Below are positions 20,675-28,899 of a stretch of 64,000 nucleotides of DNA, piece by piece. Origin of the DNA: Bacteroidaceae bacterium (GTDB lineage Bacteria > Bacteroidota > Bacteroidia > Bacteroidales > Bacteroidaceae). Below the pieces are notes generated by a model, which was not told the DNA's origin, made no database searches, and saw only the letters and a list, made by a program, of their open reading frames with translations. The stretch covers positions 1-64,000 of the forward strand of contig JAGBPB010000012.1 in NCBI GenBank assembly GCA_017633615.1, in the 5' to 3' direction. Position numbers and translations under genes: made by a program. Each line of letters starts with the position of its first letter. Within the stretch, counting starts at the first letter, position 1.

Positions 20675-20723
20675 GAGCGTTGCAAAAACGTTGCAGAAAA
20701 ATTGCAACAGTAATGCAACGCTC
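20675..20723. promoter_or_regulatory. Four TGCA half-sites phased 11 bp apart upstream of DUF4419 copy 2
   Basis: TTGCA occurs at 20680, 20691 and 20702, and ATGCA at 20713: four half-sites with an exact 11-bp period, ending about 30 bp before the -7 box TAACTTTG (20752-20759). The outer arms GAGCGTTGCA and TGCAACGCTC also form a hairpin followed by TTTT, so it may double as the uxuB terminator. The position fits an activator-binding array. Confidence 0.55.
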
Positions 20724-20790
20724 TTTTCTTGTCCTGCGCCCAGAGCCACTCTAACTTTGTCGGCAGAACAAACAAAAAACTGACGACGAT

Positions 20791-22356
20791 ATGAAAAAGC
20801 TGGTTATTATTCTCATTTCACTGATGTGTGTGAGTGTGGCATACGCCCGCAAGGAAAAGAAGGTAAAGACCAATGAAACTGTTGAGTATCTGAATGGGGG
20901 TGGAGTACGGTTCCATCTTGAGGACAAAGACAGACCGACTAAACGGTTGGATCAGAAATCGGCTGCCGATTGCTGGGAAAAGATTCTTTATGAATCAGGT
21001 GTAGGGGTGCCTGACCAGAATATCAAGACCCAAAGCGCCGGCGATAAGGAACTTGTCTGCTTTAAACGTAACTCTTGCTTTGAGGGTTTCCTTACAGCAT
21101 ATGACAAGCACTATTCGCTGATACTGTCGCCCGATATAATCTGGCTGCTCATTAGTCAGGGCATAGCCACACAGATCAATGAGAACGCCGAGCAGTTGCG
21201 TGACCGTCTGGTGGATTTTGAAGGGCAAAAGACACTGACCATCAAATATGAAGGTGAAGATCTGATGAAGCGTGACGATTACTGGGAATGGATAATCCCG
21301 GCTTTCAGTGATTCCATTGACAAAAACATGAAGGCGCAGTTCTCGGATCTTATGGTCTGTAATTTTACCACAACCGGTCTTGTGGAACGTATTTCATCGC
21401 AGATAACCATGATGGAGAGCGTCAAGAAGTATTTCAAATACGTGGTAATGGGTTCGGGCTGCGGCATTCCCGACATAACGGTTCTGGGTACTCCCGATGA
21501 CTGGAAAAACATACGTTCACGCCTCTCAAGACTTGATGACCTGGATCTGGGCTGGTGGCGAGAGGAACTGGAGCCTGTCATTGACGAGTTCGTGAACGCA
21601 TCGGAAGGGAATATAAACAAAAAATTCTGGCTTGATATGGTGGATCAGTACGCTCCCGAAAAAAGGACAGCGGCTTTCTGTGGATGGGATGGCGTTACCC
21701 CTGCGGAGTATAACGGTTGGTTCACAGTATTTTTTCCGTTCATTAAAACAGACGTATATAACGGTACTAGTCGTATAGAGCGTACTCCTAAAACCGTTAC
21801 CCATAATACCAAGGTTTGCCCGGAGATTAAGAAGGTCGATGTAAAATACATCTGGAATGATCCTATAAGTCATACTGAGGAGATACATTATCTGGAGTTG
21901 TGGGCCGGATTCATCGGCATGGAGATGGATTGGGATAATTACACCCTAAAGCCTTCCATAAGCTGGATGATGCGTGAAAAGAGCGGCAAGGACAGTGCAT
22001 TGGAAAAACTGGAACCTGAAGATATTGCATTGCTCAAACGGTTTGGTGAGGATGGTGTACTTGATTATACACGAAGTGTCCCGTATCCTGAATACAGATA
22101 TGAAAAGAATGGTGAGCTAACGCTTACAGCCTGCCAGTTCCCTCTTGTTGCAATGTCTGAATGCTACAAGCAACTGCAAGAAAAGTGCAAAAGCTATATG
22201 ATGATTTCTCTCAAGGAGGTTGTGGTTCCTGATGACCTGGGAGAATGGTGCCGTAAGTTCGGAATAGAGGAGGTTACCATCAAGGCTCCCCTGAGCAATG
22301 ACCAGAAAACTGATATCCTGCGTCAGGTTCCCACTGCCACAGTAGTCCAACTCTGA
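20791..22356 (+). CDS. Secreted DUF4419 family protein (copy 2 of 3)
   Basis: A 521-residue protein with a signal peptide (MKKLVIILISLMCVSVAYA) and a basic segment after it. It shares DKHYSLILSPDIIWLLISQ, FTTTGLVERISSQITMMES and GCGIPDITVLGTPDDW with copy 3 at 23574 and, less closely, copy 1 at 9882. The DUF4419 family has no known function. The last 51 bases of the gene region (22310-22360) are identical to the end of copy 3, and about 88 bases of upstream DNA are nearly identical too, so copies 2 and 3 come from a recent duplication or exchange sequence. A converging ATPase gene ends 7 bases downstream. Confidence 0.75.
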   Translation: MKKLVIILISLMCVSVAYARKEKKVKTNETVEYLNGGGVRFHLEDKDRPTKRLDQKSAADCWEKILYESGVGVPDQNIKTQSAGDKELVCFKRNSCFEGFLTAYDKHYSLILSPDIIWLLISQGIATQINENAEQLRDRLVDFEGQKTLTIKYEGEDLMKRDDYWEWIIPAFSDSIDKNMKAQFSDLMVCNFTTTGLVERISSQITMMESVKKYFKYVVMGSGCGIPDITVLGTPDDWKNIRSRLSRLDDLDLGWWREELEPVIDEFVNASEGNINKKFWLDMVDQYAPEKRTAAFCGWDGVTPAEYNGWFTVFFPFIKTDVYNGTSRIERTPKTVTHNTKVCPEIKKVDVKYIWNDPISHTEEIHYLELWAGFIGMEMDWDNYTLKPSISWMMREKSGKDSALEKLEPEDIALLKRFGEDGVLDYTRSVPYPEYRYEKNGELTLTACQFPLVAMSECYKQLQEKCKSYMMISLKEVVVPDDLGEWCRKFGIEEVTIKAPLSNDQKTDILRQVPTATVVQL

Positions 22357-22362
22357 TTGCAA

Positions 22363-23400
22363 TTAAAAGGTGGTGGCGAGCCATTCCCCAAAGAAACGGT
22401 CGTAGATCATATAACCATCGGCGGAACGATATACGACTTCATCATCAAGCAGTCGTGTGAGTGCAGTTTTTACGCTGCTGGTAGCTGTCAGGCTATATTT
22501 TGAAATAAATACTCCAGATGTAATCTCTTTTACTTTCTTCTCTTTTGCTATGGCTTTCAGAAGTTTGGCCTGTCCTTTGGGGTATGCTCTGAGAAGTTGC
22601 TGATAATAATACTCGTTTTCGTTGATGATGTCCGATATGCATTCGTGAACCAAGTCAGATTCGATTGCTCTGGACCTTTTGGAATAGAGACGGTTAAGAA
22701 TCATCTGGATGTACCAAGTGTGACCCTCAAACAACTGATATAAGTCATTGAATATAACTACAGATAGCTCCCTTTCCTGATTCTTAAAGAATTGAGAGGC
22801 AAATTCATAATAAGCATCCTGATTTATTGTTTCTATTGTTTTGCCGGCTGTACTTTGATAGAACGGGCGTTTTGGTGACAGGAACATCTCTTGAAGCATG
22901 TGTGCCTGGCTTCCGGAAAAAATAAGATGTGTGTTGTGAAGGTCCTGGATGTGTGAACGGAGCAGTGCTTCAACATTCTGTTCCGGATATTTGGCTATTT
23001 GCTGGAATTCATCAAAAGCTATGTAGCAGTTTTTTCCAGATTGTTTCAAATACTGGAATACCTGTTCAAGGGTGTGGCTTTCGTTTCCTTTTGAAATATC
23101 CAATGTTATCTTTGGTTTTCCTCCAAGTACGGCCGATGCAAACACCTGCGTGAAATCCGCCAGATTCTCAGTAGGGAAGAGATCGATATAGATTGTTGTA
23201 ATATCGCGATTCTGCTGTTTCAACAGATGAAACGTATGCTTTATAAGCCCGGTTTTACCCATTCTGCGGGGAGAGGTGAGCATTACATTGCGGCCATTAC
23301 TTAATGTTTCCATTAAGTCTGCAGTCTCTTGTTTCCTGTCACAGAAATACTCTGGTGACTCATATCCGGAAACCAGGAAGGGGTTTTCTATCTTCTCCAT
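22363..23400 (-). CDS. STAND-type ATP-binding protein (archaeal-ATPase-like)
   Basis: A 345-residue P-loop NTPase. Walker A is SPRRMGKTGLIKH near residue 43 and Walker B is CYIAFDEFQQI near residue 148, preceded by ENPFLVSGYESPEYFCDR, the usual N-terminus of the ATPase family first described from archaea. The C-terminal third (KGQAKLLKAIAKEKKVKEI onward) looks like a winged helix. Such proteins are abundant in Bacteroidales and mostly uncharacterised. It sits on the opposite strand between two DUF4419 genes. Its upstream region (23404-23452) is packed with TTGCGTTA direct and inverted repeats. Confidence 0.8.
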   Translation of the reverse strand: MEKIENPFLVSGYESPEYFCDRKQETADLMETLSNGRNVMLTSPRRMGKTGLIKHTFHLLKQQNRDITTIYIDLFPTENLADFTQVFASAVLGGKPKITLDISKGNESHTLEQVFQYLKQSGKNCYIAFDEFQQIAKYPEQNVEALLRSHIQDLHNTHLIFSGSQAHMLQEMFLSPKRPFYQSTAGKTIETINQDAYYEFASQFFKNQERELSVVIFNDLYQLFEGHTWYIQMILNRLYSKRSRAIESDLVHECISDIINENEYYYQQLLRAYPKGQAKLLKAIAKEKKVKEITSGVFISKYSLTATSSVKTALTRLLDDEVVYRSADGYMIYDRFFGEWLATTF

Positions 23401-23403
23401 ATC

Positions 23404-23452
23404 GTTGCGTTAATTACGTTGCGTTAATTGCGCAACGCAAATAACGCAATTG
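23404..23452. repeat. TTGCGTTA direct and inverted repeats upstream of the ATPase gene
   Basis: TTGCGTTAATT occurs twice 14 bp apart (from 23406 and 23420), and AACGCAA/TAACGCAA occur in inverted orientation up to 23449. The palindromic cluster directly precedes the ATPase start codon, as an autoregulatory operator would. The TTGC core recalls the phased half-sites in the neighbouring promoters. Confidence 0.5.
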
Positions 23453-23463
23453 TTTTTTAACTA

Positions 23464-23505
23464 CGCAAGAAATATGCAACTTTTTTGCAACGGTTTTGCA
23501 ACGCT
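23464..23505 (+). promoter_or_regulatory. Phased TGCAA half-sites upstream of DUF4419 copy 3
   Basis: TGCAAC occurs at 23475, 23486 and 23497, with CGCAA at 23464: an 11-bp period again. The last site lies 30 bp before the -7 box TACCTTTG (23535-23542), and the ATG is at 23574. The array extends the TTGCAAC-N5-TGCAACGCT core found in the other two promoters. Confidence 0.6.
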
Positions 23506-23573
23506 CTTTTCTTGTCCTGGGCTCAGAACCACTCTACCTTTGTCGGCAGAACAAACAAATAACTGACAACGAT

Positions 23574-25157
23574 ATGAAAAAGTTAGTCATTATCCTCATT
23601 TCACTATTATGTGTGAACGTAGTGTACGCCCGTAAGGAAAAGAAAGAGAAGGCCAGTTTGAAAGATACAACGTCCCAGATTATAAACGTTCCTATAACTC
23701 GGCTTGAGAGTGGTGGAATAAAGTTCCATCTTGAAGACAAGGATGCACCCACAAGTCCATTAGCACAAATATCGGGACAGGAGTGCTGGGAAAAGATATT
23801 GAGTGAGACAGGCGTTGCGGTATCGGGCTATAATATATGGACACACAGTGCCGATGACAAGGAACTGGTCTGCTTTGACCGCAATGCATGCTTTGAAGGT
23901 ATTCTGACTGCATTTGATAAGCACTATTCGCTTGTACTTTCACCCGATGTGATCTGGCTGCTTATAACTCAGGGTATTGCCACTTATATTAATGAAAACG
24001 CCGAGCGGCTGCGTGACCGTCTTGTTGATTTTGAAGGCCAGAAGACGCTTAAAATCATGTCATTCCGTGATCTGTTGGAGTATGAAGAAGACTGGGACTG
24101 GATAATCCAGGCTTTCAGCGATTCAATTGACAAGAACATGAAGGCGCAATTTTCGGACCTTATGGTCTGTAATTTCAGTACAACCGGCACGCTGGAACGA
24201 GTTACGTCACAGATTACAATGATGGAGAGTGTCAAGAAGTTCTTCAAATATGAAGTAATGTATTTGAAATGCGGTATACCGGATATTACCCTTCTGGGTA
24301 CTCCCGATGACTGGAAAGAGATACGCTCACGCATCAAGAGGCTGGATGATTTGGACCTGGATTGGTGGCGTGAAGAGCTGGAGCCTGTTCTCGATGAGTT
24401 TGTAAATGCGTCCCAAGGTAATGTCAACCATGAGTTCTGGCTCAATATGGTACAGGAATATTCGCCGGAACGAAAGGGGGCGGCCGGGTGTGGCTCAAAC
24501 GGAATTGTTCCCGCAGAGTATAACGGTTGGTTCACTATTTTCTTTCCGTTCTGTGAATCAAAATACGGGGCGTCGGGTTCACTCATTGAACGTACTCCAA
24601 AGATTGTTACACACAACACAAAGGTGTGCTCCGAGATAAAAAAGGTTGATGTCAAGTATGTAATTATTTTGCCTGATCGTGAAGAAACCCATAATCTCGA
24701 GCTTTGGGCCGGGTTTATTGGCATGGAGATGAATTGGGAAACCAGGACTCTCACACCGGCCATGAGTTGGATGATGCGCGAGAAGAATGAAAAGGAAATG
24801 ACATTGAGTCTATTGGAAGCAGAGGACCTGGACTTACTGAAATCTCTTGGAGAATTTGGTATGATTGATTCTGACAAATCCCACGTATCGGGTGTTTTAA
24901 GCTTTTATAAAGGGGAGGAAACAATGGTGACCTGTAGATTTCCTGTAGTATCAATGTCTGAAAACTACGGGAACGCATTTAAAGGATACAAGAGCTTTGC
25001 TCTCATCTCTCTCCAAGAGATAACCGTTCCTCAAGACTTGGGTGACTGGTGCCGCAACAATAACATAGAAAAGGTAACCATCAAAGCCCCCATGACCGAT
25101 GAACAGAAAGCTGATATCCTGCGTCAGGTTCCCACTGCCACAGTAGTCCAACTCTGA
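23574..25157 (+). CDS. Secreted DUF4419 family protein (copy 3 of 3)
   Basis: A 527-residue close paralogue of the gene at 20791, with signal peptide MKKLVIILISLLCVNVVYA. Shared blocks include DKHYSLVLSPDVIWLLITQ, FSTTGTLERVTSQITMMES and CGIPDITLLGTPDDW. I use the ATG at 23574 because the upstream in-frame region is the promoter with the -7 box TACCTTTG. By eye the two copies are about two-thirds identical in protein sequence, with identical last 51 bases, suggesting gene conversion. The function of the family is unknown; secretion is the only firm inference. Confidence 0.75.
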   Translation: MKKLVIILISLLCVNVVYARKEKKEKASLKDTTSQIINVPITRLESGGIKFHLEDKDAPTSPLAQISGQECWEKILSETGVAVSGYNIWTHSADDKELVCFDRNACFEGILTAFDKHYSLVLSPDVIWLLITQGIATYINENAERLRDRLVDFEGQKTLKIMSFRDLLEYEEDWDWIIQAFSDSIDKNMKAQFSDLMVCNFSTTGTLERVTSQITMMESVKKFFKYEVMYLKCGIPDITLLGTPDDWKEIRSRIKRLDDLDLDWWREELEPVLDEFVNASQGNVNHEFWLNMVQEYSPERKGAAGCGSNGIVPAEYNGWFTIFFPFCESKYGASGSLIERTPKIVTHNTKVCSEIKKVDVKYVIILPDREETHNLELWAGFIGMEMNWETRTLTPAMSWMMREKNEKEMTLSLLEAEDLDLLKSLGEFGMIDSDKSHVSGVLSFYKGEETMVTCRFPVVSMSENYGNAFKGYKSFALISLQEITVPQDLGDWCRNNNIEKVTIKAPMTDEQKADILRQVPTATVVQL

Positions 25158-25168
25158 TTGCCTTGTTT

Positions 25169-25197
25169 GTCACAGGGAAATGATACTATTGTGTCAC
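25169..25197. repeat. Short intergenic repeat, copy 1
   Basis: GTCACAGGGAAATGATACTATTGTG followed by TCAC. Near-identical copies are at 26154-26182 and 26552-26598. The ends (GTCACA, TGTGTC) are roughly inverted, so it may be a small palindromic element or fragment. Confidence 0.55.
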
Positions 25198-25238
25198 TAT
25201 TGCGTCATTTTGCTATATTTGCCAAAAATAGTCTGGTT

Positions 25239-26156
25239 ATGAAAAAGATTTCAAAGTGGTTGCTCACTCTCGTGATTGTTGGCTTCAGTACTGTCTCGAC
25301 GCTGGCTCAGAAGGCTAAGGATATTGTGATTCTGTATGAGAATGATGTGCATTGCAGTATTGAAGGATATACCAAATTGGCTGGACTGCGCGATGCCATT
25401 GCCAAGGCCGATACGTGTTACGTCGGTATTGTGAGCTGCGGTGATTTTGCAGCCGGAGCCGATGTGGGTAAGAACTCACAAGGTAAGTATATAGTGGATA
25501 TACTCCGTTCTGTGGGTTATGATGCCATCACGTTAGGTAACCATGAGTTAGACTATGGAGTGCCCCATATCAAGGAACTGATGCAGCAGGCAGGTGCCCC
25601 GGTTATATGCTCCAACCTGTTCGATATGGAAGGCAATCAGATTTTCCCGTCATACACAATACACCAGTACGGAAACAAGCGCGTGGCGTTTGTGGGTGCA
25701 CTTACACCACAGACCATGCAGATTGAAAGGAGTGCATTCTATGACGCTGATCGCAACCAGCTTTATGACTTAAGGCGCGATGCAATCTATGATTTGGTTC
25801 AGCAAGCCGTGGATGAAGCTCGTGCCAAAGGAGCCGATTATGTGATCATGCTCTCACACCTTGGTGAAAGACCTGCCAGCCGCGTTGACTCCCATGAACT
25901 TATAAGCAAGACCAATGGTATTGATGCATTGCTCGATGCCCATACCCATTCCACAGTACCCTGTGTCTTTGTTGAGAACAAGGATGGCAAGCAAATCCCC
26001 ATCACCCAGACCGGTATCCATTTTGCCAACATCGGCAAACTGATAATATCAACAAGCGGCAAGGTAAGCGTCCAGCTCATGCCCGTGGAAGAAATTACCT
26101 ACACCAGCCCCCGGGTAACCGCCGTCACTGACAGCATAAAGTCTCTCCTCCCTTGA
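25239..26156 (+). CDS. Secreted metallophosphatase (5'-nucleotidase metallophosphoesterase domain)
   Basis: A 305-residue protein with signal peptide (MKKISKWLLTLVIVGFSTV) and the calcineurin-like metallophosphoesterase motifs of 5'-nucleotidases: NDVHCSIEG, SCGDFAAG, TLGNHELDYG and AHTHSTVPC. It would hydrolyse nucleotides or similar phosphate esters in the periplasm. The separate C-terminal substrate-binding domain of full-length 5'-nucleotidases is missing; some Bacteroidales encode that domain as a separate gene, but none is next to this one. The TGA stop lies at the first bases of a short intergenic repeat. The -7 box TATATTTG (25214-25221) supports the ATG at 25239. Confidence 0.88.
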   Translation: MKKISKWLLTLVIVGFSTVSTLAQKAKDIVILYENDVHCSIEGYTKLAGLRDAIAKADTCYVGIVSCGDFAAGADVGKNSQGKYIVDILRSVGYDAITLGNHELDYGVPHIKELMQQAGAPVICSNLFDMEGNQIFPSYTIHQYGNKRVAFVGALTPQTMQIERSAFYDADRNQLYDLRRDAIYDLVQQAVDEARAKGADYVIMLSHLGERPASRVDSHELISKTNGIDALLDAHTHSTVPCVFVENKDGKQIPITQTGIHFANIGKLIISTSGKVSVQLMPVEEITYTSPRVTAVTDSIKSLLP

Positions 26157-26182
26157 CACAGGGAACCGATACTATTGTGCCC
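26154..26182. repeat. Short intergenic repeat, copy 2
   Basis: TGACACAGGGAACCGATACT followed by ATTGTGCCC. The first three bases are the stop codon of the metallophosphatase gene. Confidence 0.55.
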
Positions 26183-26338
26183 TATTTCTGTTCAGAAATA
26201 GATTTGAAATTATTAAGGACTTCGTTTCTTAGTATATCAACTAACTCCAACCAGTTCGGTAATATATGGATAAAACGAATTAAGGGAAACAACTATTTTG
26301 TCTCCCTCTTTAGTTATGACATCAAATGACAGATTCAT
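26182..26338 (-). pseudogene. Frameshifted small gene following the 46-codon gene
   Basis: Reading from the ATG at 26338, the frame gives MNLSFDVITKEGDKIVVSL and then drifts into a stop after 33 codons. Removing one A in the CTTAATTCG stretch restores a protein-like continuation, RFIHILPNWLELVDILRNE... ending at a stop at 26184-26182, total about 52 codons. Its ATG overlaps the stop of the upstream small gene by one base, so the two were translated together. The likeliest reading is a one-base insertion that broke the gene. I do not recognise the family. Confidence 0.45.
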
Positions 26339-26478
26339 TATAACTGAATGCTGAAATTATGAGTCTTTTTATCCAGTAATTCCTTGCGCCGAGTCTCTTT
26401 GTCTCTACGCATCTTTTCAATGAAATCCAACACCTTCTTGGGCGGATTTTCAATTACTATTTTCTCATTGCTTTCCAT
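26338..26478 (-). CDS. Small charged protein, 46 residues
   Basis: The frame from the ATG at 26478 encodes MESNEKIVIENPPKKVLDFI and continues with a highly charged helix (EKMRRDKETRRKELL) to a stop at 26340-26338. It is supported by a well-formed promoter on the same strand: a TTTG box, 20 bp, then TACTTTTG (about 26500-26531). The gene overlaps the next small reading frame by one base. The size and pairing resemble a small toxin-antitoxin or accessory operon, but no family is recognised and the partner appears frameshifted. Confidence 0.5.
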   Translation of the reverse strand: MESNEKIVIENPPKKVLDFIEKMRRDKETRRKELLDKKTHNFSIQL

Positions 26479-26551
26479 AGTGTATGTTTTGATTTTTGGC
26501 AAAAGTATAAATCAAAAAACAATTTTCCAAATATAAATCTGAATATTATTG

Positions 26552-26598
26552 GTGACACAGGGAAACGATGTCACAGGGAAACGATACTATTGTGCCAC
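26552..26598. repeat. Short intergenic repeat, tandem copy 3
   Basis: A partial unit (TGACACAGGGAAACGATG) is followed directly by a full unit (TCACAGGGAAACGATACT, then ATTGTGCCAC). The fragment of uxuB begins two bases later. Confidence 0.55.
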
Positions 26599-26599
26599 G

Positions 26600-26637
26600 T
26601 GGTCAATGATTGACAAGATCACTCCGCGTCCGCATGA
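26600..26637 (+). pseudogene. Displaced 38-base fragment of the uxuB coding sequence
   Basis: TGGTCAATGATTGACAAGAT followed by CACTCCGCGTCCGCATGA matches uxuB positions 19765-19802 with one mismatch (CACCCC to CACTCC). It lies between the tandem repeat and the TGCAAC promoter array of the next gene, and cannot be expressed as protein on its own. Confidence 0.7.
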
Positions 26638-26696
26638 TTGCAACAGTTTTGCAACGCTAAACAGTTTGCTTGGTTTATTGCCGATTGTACTTTTGT
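26638..26696 (+). promoter_or_regulatory. Promoter with two TGCAAC half-sites for the FISUMP-like gene
   Basis: TTGCAAC-N5-TGCAACGCT occupies 26638-26658, with half-sites 11 bp apart. The -33 box TTTG is at 26665-26668, then 20 bp, then the -7 box TACTTTTG at 26689-26696. The core matches those at 20702 and 23485 although the downstream gene is unrelated. Confidence 0.65.
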
Positions 26697-26718: not shown

Positions 26719-28899
26719 ATGAAAAAGATTTGCGTCACATTGTTGCTTTCGGCAATTACTGTTGTTTCTGTGTTAGCTCAGGATAAGTCCAATTCCGGTG
26801 ATTTGTCTTTTACTTATGTAGATCTGGGTTTAAGCGTGCTTTGGGCCGATTGTAACCTGGGTGCTGCCGCTCCCTCTGAGTATGGCAATTATTATGCATG
26901 GGGAGAGACTGAGCCCAAGGCTTTCTATTCATGGGATAATTACCATAACTACGAGCCGCCCCGTGATGAACCGTTAGAAGAATATGATGAATTGCTGCAA
27001 GAGTTAAGACAGATTGGCGGAAACCGGGGCAGAAACCGGGGCAGGAACTACGAACCGCTCAAGTTGCAGCCGGCAAACGATGCGGCAACCGTTCTGTTGG
27101 GTGCAGAATGGCATATGCCCACTATTGACGATTATGATGAGTTGTATGCCAACTGTGATTATGATACGGTTACAGTGAACGGTGTCATTGGATTGAGGTA
27201 TACCAGCAGGATAGCAGGCTATGAGGACCGCAGCATTTTCATTCCTTACGGAGGATATATAGAGGATACTGAAATAACAGGGGAGTATCTGGCTTTCTGG
27301 ACATGGACATCACAGGCAGATAACAGATGGGAAGGCGACAGCGGTGCCATATTGGTAAGTACCAGTAACACCATAAATCCTGCATATTTCTTCAAAGATG
27401 AAGAAAAGAGGAATGATATAGGGACGAAACCCTCTCAAGCTCAACATTGGCGTTACAGGGGATTGAGCATACGTCCGGTAAGACAGTATGACTTGGACTC
27501 CATAATCTCATTTGAACTATCCACCGATAAAATGAATCTTGATTTTGGTGAGATAGTCAAGGTAAATGCTGTCTCCAGACCGTCGGGGCGTCAGATAGAA
27601 AACGGCAACATACAGTGGGGCACGTCATCAGATCAGGTGGCAGTATGCAAAGACGGTAAAGTCACGGCCATAGGAGTGGGAACGTGCGTTATCACAGCAG
27701 AGTATAACGGTCAGAAGGCACAGATGACGGTCAACGTCACCATGCCGGAACTCATACCCGTCGATTTGGGATTGAGCGTCAAGTGGGCATCGGCCAACTT
27801 GGGGGCATCATCGCCACGCAAAGCCGGAGCATATATCGCATGGGGAGATACAAGCCCCAAGGTGGGTCTGTATTTAAGGGATGATTATAAGACTGTATGG
27901 ACTGAGAAACTGGAGCCGGAAAAAGATGCGGTCATGGTCAGGATTGGCGGCGGCTGGCGTATGCCGGATGCCGATGATCTGTGGGAGCTTAAGAATAAAT
28001 GCAGCTGGCAAACCATAGACACAAAAGACAGTTGCGGTTACATCATCACCAGCAATGTGCCCGGTTATGAGGACCGCAGTATATTCCTTCCGGCTGTCGG
28101 TCATAAAACAGATAGTGAAGGCAGGGTGGGAATGAATCTGATGAGTTATGGGAGCTATAAAACAATTACATATAACACTTTGGTCGCAGATGTGAGCCTG
28201 GGTTCAACTTTCAAGTGGGAAGGTTGTCCCATCAGACCTGTATTGGACACAGGTGAAGGCAAAAAGGCTGGGCCTGATCCGGTTAAGCCGTTAAACCATG
28301 ATGCAATGGTTGACCTGGGTTTAAGTGTGTTGTGGGCCGATTGTAATGTGGGCGCCGACTCTCCGGAGGAATGTGGTGCTCGTTTTGCATGGGGTGAAAC
28401 AGCCGAGAAGACATATTATACCAAGTATAATTACAAACTGAATGGCAAGTATAATTCCTGGGAGGACAGAAATAAGCTTGATGCTGCCCATGATGCTGCT
28501 CATGTAAATTGGGGTGGAGAGTGGAGAATGCCCACCAAAGAGGAGTATGCTGAACTCTTCAAGAACTGTGAATGGGCAGATACGACGATTAATGGCGTAG
28601 AAGGATTCCTGTTTACCAGCAAGGTCCCGGGATACACTTCAAATTCCATCTTTTTGCCGTTTACAAATGGAGGAATATACAAGGCCGACAGAGGTCTATA
28701 TCTTACATCCGATGCCTCTTTCCGTTATGAGAACAGTTGTGTGGCATTTACAATCTCCAAATACAAATCAGGTACAAATGATGAGGTAGATTTGGGATTG
28801 GAGAACTATGAGGATTGGGGCTACCCGAATTCAGAGATCCATATGCCTTCAAGAAGCAGGCATGAAGGCGGTTGGGTCCGTGCCGTATGTCCTAAATGA
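26719..28899 (+). CDS. Secreted FISUMP-like protein with three modules and a BIG2 domain
   Basis: A 726-residue secreted protein (signal peptide MKKICVTLLLSAITVVSVLA). Three modules start with VDLGLSVLWADCNLGA-type sequence near residues 33, 348 and 531, and each contains an (E/G)WRMP or EWHMP turn, a GY/GF...SIF(L/I)P segment and an RPV/RAV end. This resembles the Fibrobacter succinogenes major paralogous domain. A bacterial Ig-like (BIG2) domain lies between modules 1 and 2 (about 263-345; VTAIGVGTCVITAEYNGQK). A 12-base tandem duplication gives NRGRNRGRN near residue 105. The modules are probably surface-exposed; function unknown. ATG 26719 follows a clear promoter. Confidence 0.75.
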   Translation: MKKICVTLLLSAITVVSVLAQDKSNSGDLSFTYVDLGLSVLWADCNLGAAAPSEYGNYYAWGETEPKAFYSWDNYHNYEPPRDEPLEEYDELLQELRQIGGNRGRNRGRNYEPLKLQPANDAATVLLGAEWHMPTIDDYDELYANCDYDTVTVNGVIGLRYTSRIAGYEDRSIFIPYGGYIEDTEITGEYLAFWTWTSQADNRWEGDSGAILVSTSNTINPAYFFKDEEKRNDIGTKPSQAQHWRYRGLSIRPVRQYDLDSIISFELSTDKMNLDFGEIVKVNAVSRPSGRQIENGNIQWGTSSDQVAVCKDGKVTAIGVGTCVITAEYNGQKAQMTVNVTMPELIPVDLGLSVKWASANLGASSPRKAGAYIAWGDTSPKVGLYLRDDYKTVWTEKLEPEKDAVMVRIGGGWRMPDADDLWELKNKCSWQTIDTKDSCGYIITSNVPGYEDRSIFLPAVGHKTDSEGRVGMNLMSYGSYKTITYNTLVADVSLGSTFKWEGCPIRPVLDTGEGKKAGPDPVKPLNHDAMVDLGLSVLWADCNVGADSPEECGARFAWGETAEKTYYTKYNYKLNGKYNSWEDRNKLDAAHDAAHVNWGGEWRMPTKEEYAELFKNCEWADTTINGVEGFLFTSKVPGYTSNSIFLPFTNGGIYKADRGLYLTSDASFRYENSCVAFTISKYKSGTNDEVDLGLENYEDWGYPNSEIHMPSRSRHEGGWVRAVCPK

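Follow-up and report, generated by a model that had tools for sequence, protein, structure and literature searches.

Upstream of three genes for secreted proteins in contig JAGBPB010000012.1 of a Bacteroidaceae bacterium (assembly GCA_017633615.1), TGCAA half-sites recur at steps of 11 base pairs (bp) and end at a fixed distance from the promoter. The window analyzed here is the whole stretch of 64,000 nucleotides (nt) at positions 1 to 64,000 of this contig. The arrays are almost certainly binding sites, as predicted from their sequence, and their predicted binder very probably acts as an activator. The explanation that we consider probable as a whole is a fixed-register activator site that immediately precedes the -33 element in a housekeeping promoter; this site would turn on genes for secreted or surface proteins, and its binder may well be a NarL/LuxR-type helix-turn-helix (HTH) protein. 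Taken alone, the assignment of the binder to the NarL/LuxR class is an even call.

Half-Site Arrays in the Window

Direct reading of the sequence gave 11 bp for every half-site step at all three arrays. The original prediction of TGCAA half-sites at an 11-bp phase before three secreted-protein genes was hence confirmed when its positions and steps were reread. Gene 1 is preceded by TGCAR at 20681, 20692, 20703, and 20714, gene 2 by CGCAA or TGCAA at 23464, 23475, 23486, and 23497, and gene 3 by TGCAAC at 26639 and 26650, which is the promoter-proximal pair alone. The outer half-sites are partly degenerate (TTGCAG, ACGCAA). From the start of the last TGCAAC to the TAnnTTTG box, the distance is exactly 38 bp in all three promoters, where the boxes start at 20752, 23535, and 26688. 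The features are listed below.

20680–20721, + strand: array 1, with TTGCAA at 20680, TTGCAG at 20691, TTGCAAC at 20702, and ATGCAACGC at 20713, the left pair being inverted relative to the right (sequence; conserved in related DUF4419 promoters)
20728–20731, + strand: CTTG at the -33 position of gene 1, at a fixed distance from the array (sequence; logo of related promoters)
20752–20759, + strand: -7 box TAACTTTG of gene 1 (sequence)
20791–22356, + strand: gene 1, DUF4419 secreted protein a (PF14388, E = 1e-64)
23463–23504, + strand: array 2, with ACGCAA at 23463, ATGCAAC at 23474, TTGCAAC at 23485, and TTGCAACGC at 23496 (sequence)
23511–23514, + strand: CTTG at the -33 position of gene 2 (sequence)
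23535–23542, + strand: -7 box TACCTTTG of gene 2 (sequence)
23574–25157, + strand: gene 2, DUF4419 secreted protein b, 67% identical to a (sequence comparison and Pfam)
26638–26657, + strand: array 3 of two sites, TTGCAAC at 26638 and TTGCAACGC at 26649 (sequence)
26665–26668, + strand: TTTG at the -33 position of gene 3 (sequence)
26688–26695, + strand: -7 box TACTTTTG of gene 3 (sequence)
26719–28899, + strand: gene 3, secreted protein in which a similar stretch (VDLGLSV..., by reading) occurs three times (Lcl_C below the Pfam cut-off)

The third gene had been said not to be a DUF4419 gene, which agrees with Pfam: its protein gave no DUF4419 match and only the sub-threshold Lcl_C. The module sequence of array 3 recurs identically in genomes G006 (locus L073) and G226. 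When TGCAA-N6-TGCAA was searched with at most one mismatch, the window gave 23 matches as compared with 7.6 ± 2.9 over 100 dinucleotide-shuffled versions, every one of which stayed below 23; TTGCAA is a palindrome, by which some places were scored on both strands in this count. Exact pairs on the + strand number five (20703, 22175, 23475, 23486, and 26639), and four of them lie within the three promoters, the one at 22175 being inside the coding sequence of DUF4419 protein a. The four-site array of gene 1 can also be read as two inverted 20-bp halves, and its left pair has no TAnnTTTG at 38 or 39 bp on its own side. Promoter 1 with its surroundings (191 bp) had no match in a search of plasmids, and Rfam, at its gathering threshold, recognized nothing in the window but a tRNA.

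Three similar CACAGGGAAACGATACTATTGTG-like elements are located between the window genes, at 25171, 26157, and 26572. Positions 23401–23453 contain GCAACG/AACGCAA repeats that are, by reading, off the 11-bp step, and that precede a divergent AAA-type ATPase gene (22363–23400, minus strand; Pfam ATPase_2).

Period and Register in Related Genomes

Relatives were found by scanning genome contigs for DUF4419, which gave 14 loci. Thirteen of these come from metagenome-assembled genomes (MAGs) of Bacteroidales, Bacteroidaceae, or Prevotellaceae, several of them ruminant-sourced, and the remaining one (L014) comes from a distant Bacteroidota at 39% identity. The half-sites drift in the orthologous promoters (ATGCGAC, TTGCAGC, TTGCGGC) while the step stays, and the pair stands in register at 12 of the 14 loci; the phasing is therefore not lost between relatives.

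Eleven whole genomes, which carry 13 of the 14 loci, were scanned for pairs. The pattern TGCAAC-N(0-25)-TGCAACG gave 121 matches versus 19 for the reversed control. The 11-bp step accounts for 97 matches and other steps for 24, the biggest other class being a 9-bp step with five members. From these 97 arrays, 96 were read, leaving out that of L001 (G001:C4), and 95 remained after one overlapping pair was merged. A TAnnTTTG box was observed exactly 38 bp (54 arrays) or 39 bp (27 arrays) from the second TGCAAC in 81 of the 95, which indicates that the motif is not equally common outside promoters. Other TAnnTTTG offsets up to 120 bp occurred once or twice each among the 96 arrays. The remaining 14 arrays comprise one with the box at 50 bp and 13 with none between 25 and 60 bp; by inspection, eight or nine of the latter make up one side of an array with four sites, two carry GATATTTG as a variant, another forms the upstream pair within a longer array, and a further one is located in coding sequence.

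A logo was constructed from 53 unique promoters of the 38-bp class and 25 of the 39-bp class. In both classes, TTG follows the start of the second TGCAAC at 15 bp (T100 T94 G94 in the larger class, T76 T92 G72 in the smaller), and C follows the second TGCAACG in 96% and 92%, respectively. Upstream of -4, the logo holds at most 0.29 bit, except for 0.61 at -8 in the smaller class. Since the distance from array to TTG is the same in both classes, the array is locked to the -33 element, and it is the -33 to -7 spacing that varies by one. The minimal unit, here called the module, is thus WTGCAAC-N4-WTGCAACGC followed by TTG at 15 bp and TAnnTTTG at 38 or 39 bp, counted from the start of the second TGCAAC. 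Extra WWGCAR sites in the 81 promoters occur nine times at -11 and five times at -22, as compared with 0–2 times at the other offsets tested. One array with two register-correct divergent promoters was found at L048, where it has three sites, and at L054 and L066, where it has four. Some three- and four-site arrays are thus two pairs shared by divergent genes.

A repeat of approximately 31 bp (AGTCAAC...TTAGGAATAAGA) stops within a few bases of arrays located before different genes (L072, L074, L075, L078, L111, and L113), and other repeats likewise end at arrays.

Taxonomic Range and Genes behind the Module

The pair plus the -7 box was detected in 30 of 37 genus genomes and in 33 of 399 sampled family genomes, with 0 for the reversed control in both cases, and in one of 295 sampled order genomes (G003). 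Six of the 33 module-bearing family genomes lie outside the genus, with a single copy each.

An ATG open reading frame (ORF) of at least 60 amino acids starts within 260 bp behind 78 of the 81 register-correct promoters. Under a crude hydrophobicity rule, 74 of these 78 proteins are signal-peptide-like, versus 104 of the 221 remaining ORFs at these loci. Pfam was run on 69 of 89 ORFs, including a few without a -7 box; the 20 omitted were, as judged by eye, mostly homologues of included ones, together with four that lack the box. This gave CarboxypepD_reg 23, CarbopepD_reg_2 20, DUF4419 14, LRR_5 5, Lcl_C 5, Big_2 4, and MG2 3. After removal of the signal regions, the 78 proteins formed nine single-linkage clusters, the largest of which contains 60 members chained by shared domains. 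The variety of Pfam families and the clusters indicate that the regulon consists of several secreted families, some heavily expanded, rather than of one duplicated gene. The regulon had been expected to be small and to consist of secreted proteins; the second part agrees with the signal-peptide-like majority, and the first does not apply to G003, which has 24 module matches.

Comparison with Known Promoters and Activator Sites

The promoter part of the module resembles the housekeeping promoters of Bacteroidota, for which the available part of the source describes a TAnnTTTG -7 box and a TTG at -33 (PMC9723704). The same TAnnTTTG, with the -33 TTG about 20 bp upstream, is seen in 81 of the 95 arrays and in the logo. 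Unlike the promoters in that part of the source, the module adds an upstream pair in fixed register, as sampled in one genus and six single cases. TAnnTTTG occupies -12 to -5 in a flavobacterium according to the same portion of PMC9723704, which places the pair at about -62 to -44. Such a pair, on one helix face and just upstream of -33, would suit class-II activation through the sigma factor, and locking to -33 instead of -7 is what would be expected for a contact with sigma region 4.

The closest geometry is that of ComA of Bacillus subtilis. In the consulted part of PMC4797271, this tetrahelical HTH regulator is described as a class-II activator that contacts sigma-A from the direct repeat TTGCGG-N5-TTGCGG beside the -35 element, 5 nt being the optimal spacer, and an inverted arrangement of its element is also in use. 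Both that site and the present arrays are direct repeats with a TTGC core, a 5-nt spacer, and an 11-bp step beside the -35 or -33 element, to which the arrays keep a fixed distance. They differ from the ComA system as given there in the half-site, which is TTGCAA(C) instead of TTGCGG, in the promoter, which is of the Bacteroidota -33/-7 type, and in the candidate regulators, which are membrane proteins that match TPR or DUF805 in Pfam but no receiver domain.

PhoB and VicR boxes are also tandem sites of the OmpR/PhoB family. For PhoP of Mycobacterium tuberculosis, the part of the source at hand gives 7-bp motifs with a strict 4-bp spacer, of which three and four in a row are also bound (PMC4832192). 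The arrays can be written in the same manner, as WTGCAAC-N4-WTGCAAC, with three or four sites possible. Their geometry is therefore equally compatible with direct repeats of the ComA/NarL type and with boxes of the OmpR/PhoB type, and the TTGC core favors the ComA class over the PhoP type. In the open-access literature, with subscription papers and preprints outside this scope, no description of the motif was found; for DUF4419 by itself there was a single entry, which concerns the genome of an amoeba.

Candidate Regulators

A TPR protein with a C-terminal HTH-like domain (TPR-HTH; E ≤ 1e-20, fixed before the search) occurs in 28 of 30 module-bearing and none of seven module-free genus genomes. 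A second family, in which an HTH-like domain at the N terminus is joined to a DUF805 membrane domain (HTH-DUF805; L271–L290, e.g., L272:2174-3217, + strand), occurs in 21 of 30 and none of seven at a cut-off of about 1e-30 chosen after viewing the matches, and was set aside as the sole regulator in view of these lower counts. The HTH stretches of the two families are alike (39% over 66 amino acids), for which reason they were also counted jointly: one or the other is present in 29 of the 30 module-bearing and none of the seven module-free genomes at the thresholds used. Fisher values for this co-occurrence ignore relatedness.

In total, 98 module-driven proteins were read, the single module of G402 not being among them; G009 is another single case. 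The module drives an HTH-family gene in six of the 11 single-module genomes read (L131–L135, and L139 of G319), versus none of the 87 other promoters. In L131–L135, an orthologous protein consisting of TPR, a transmembrane (TM) part, and a C-terminal HTH-like domain stands behind five of the six modules outside the genus; the gene that comes after it is a serpin in L132, the one tested, with look-alikes in the other four. L139, inside the genus, encodes a protein of 263 amino acids that has hydrophobic segments and carries the same HTH domain at its C terminus. An HTH gene behind its own module is the pattern expected from autoregulation, which we infer here. A model of the HTH domain (predicted local distance difference test score of 89) gave NarL/LuxR-type proteins as its first five structural neighbors, with probabilities of 0.84–0.93; they include StyR (0.93), VqmA (0.92–0.93), and the DNA-binding domain of LiaR (0.90; TM-score 0.69 by target). 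When the full TPR-HTH model was searched, the 50 matches listed out of 1456 were TPR proteins. In the window itself, tblastn at 1e-3 with five candidate-regulator queries detected no close copy.

The binder would act as ComA does at TTGCGG-N5-TTGCGG; TPR-TM-HTH, HTH-DUF805, and the short protein of L139 are its best candidates. We tentatively propose, at somewhat below an even chance, that a receiver-less, membrane-anchored NarL/LuxR-type HTH family in its TPR, DUF805, or short TM form directly controls a genus-wide secreted and surface regulon (DUF4419, CarboxypepD_reg-like, Lcl_C/FISUMP-like, LRR_5, and alpha-2-macroglobulin-like proteins), presumably in response to a signal, through a ComA-like TTGCAA-N5-TTGCAA locked to -33. 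The ancestral single module would have been the regulator's own promoter and would later have spread to secreted genes. The HTH gene of G319 and the six of 11 against none of 87 slightly raise the weight of this proposal and of the NarL/LuxR class, and slightly lower that of the winged-helix alternative treated below.

Several observations weigh against these assignments. No Foldseek match of the HTH model reaches E 0.001 (best 0.25), and sigma factors and MarR-like proteins also appear among the matches; Pfam does not recognize the HTH stretch, and the PDB profile matches are weak (EvgA and StyR at E 0.4–0.6, and LicT at 0.007 on another part). G006, with eight modules, has only weak TPR-HTH matches (1e-7) and is covered through HTH-DUF805, and G372, with two modules, has neither family. 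Weak short matches to the HTH part occur in the module-free G394 and G403 (1e-5 and 3e-7), and TPR-HTH relatives (5e-20 to 3e-4) in the array-free G014, G015, G016, and G019 outside the genus. No module-driven protein read in the 11 main genomes falls in the HTH family, and L131–L135 represent one orthologous operon, by which the six of 11 amount to about two independent cases. The co-occurrence is confounded by phylogeny and MAG completeness. As for the sites, the DUF4419 loci L005 and L014 are without an array, the promoters are not all independent because 60 of the 78 proteins form one cluster with expanded families, and repeated DNA abuts the arrays, so that relocated or copied promoters may be among them.

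Alternative Explanations

The array could instead be a Pho-box-like site of a winged-helix regulator of the OmpR/PhoB family, that is, an RprY-like protein, a PhoB-like protein, or a fusion of an Na/Pi cotransporter, PhoU, and a winged HTH; we consider this unlikely. Tandem repeats are what such regulators bind, Trans_reg_C proteins are present in 27 of 27 genomes tested, and the fusion is found in 21 of 30 module-bearing and none of seven module-free genus genomes, which at first made it the best candidate. It was demoted because its promoter has a different 11-bp repeat, TTAAGAT-N4-TTACAAT, at 18 of 20 loci (counting one T variant), and because it is absent from G274 and G002 (eight modules each) and G130 (two). 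This repeat gave 20 matches in the genus, 18 of them just upstream of the fusion, as compared with two for the reversed control. The universal response regulator of these genomes, which we take to be RprY-like, has a nearly unchanged recognition-helix region in the module-bearing G002 and G007 and the module-free G012 and G017, and therefore does not explain the restricted range. The present half-site also differs from the OmpR/PhoB boxes, the PhoB-like fusion of the genus having a box of its own, and none of the winged-helix regulators tested has a distribution that fully follows the module. In PMC3646045, no mention of a consensus, motif, direct repeat, or binding site was found for RprY. 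LytTR regulators, another candidate, are present in 27 of 27 genomes tested, with arrays or not, and were rejected as non-discriminating at the family level.

The fusion itself (L221–L240, e.g., L221:523-2442, + strand, and L241; PF02690, PF01895, PF00486) joins an Na+/Pi cotransporter-PhoU protein to a PhoB-type winged helix and was found in 21 genus genomes and in G060 outside the genus. Its makeup suggests a phosphate circuit contained in one protein.

A repressor operator just upstream of -33 would account for the proximity of the array to the promoter, but it is highly improbable, as the sites are clear of -33 and -7 and yet locked to -33, which would be expected of an activator. Least credible of all is that the arrays are non-regulatory ends of, or targets for, repeated DNA copied along with genes: a 16-mer in the 80 bp upstream is common to modules with unlike downstream DNA in 32 of 77 cases (at least four of the 32 sharing array sequence alone) versus none of 69 flanks about 600 bp further up, but the boundary is common to several unlike repeats, both the 11-bp step and the distance from array to -33 are conserved where the flank is not, and the spacing is kept in orthologous promoters despite the drift of the half-sites.

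Implications

If the proposed control of the regulon by membrane-anchored HTH proteins is true, uncultured rumen Bacteroidales would have a one-component equivalent of ComA-type activation, and orphan membrane HTH proteins would be tied to a concrete candidate DNA site. If the rule of half-site phase and register is true, a half-site shifted out of phase should abolish expression. With this rule, genes for secreted proteins that are co-regulated can be predicted in an uncultured genus, and many of these genes belong to families without a known role, such as DUF4419.

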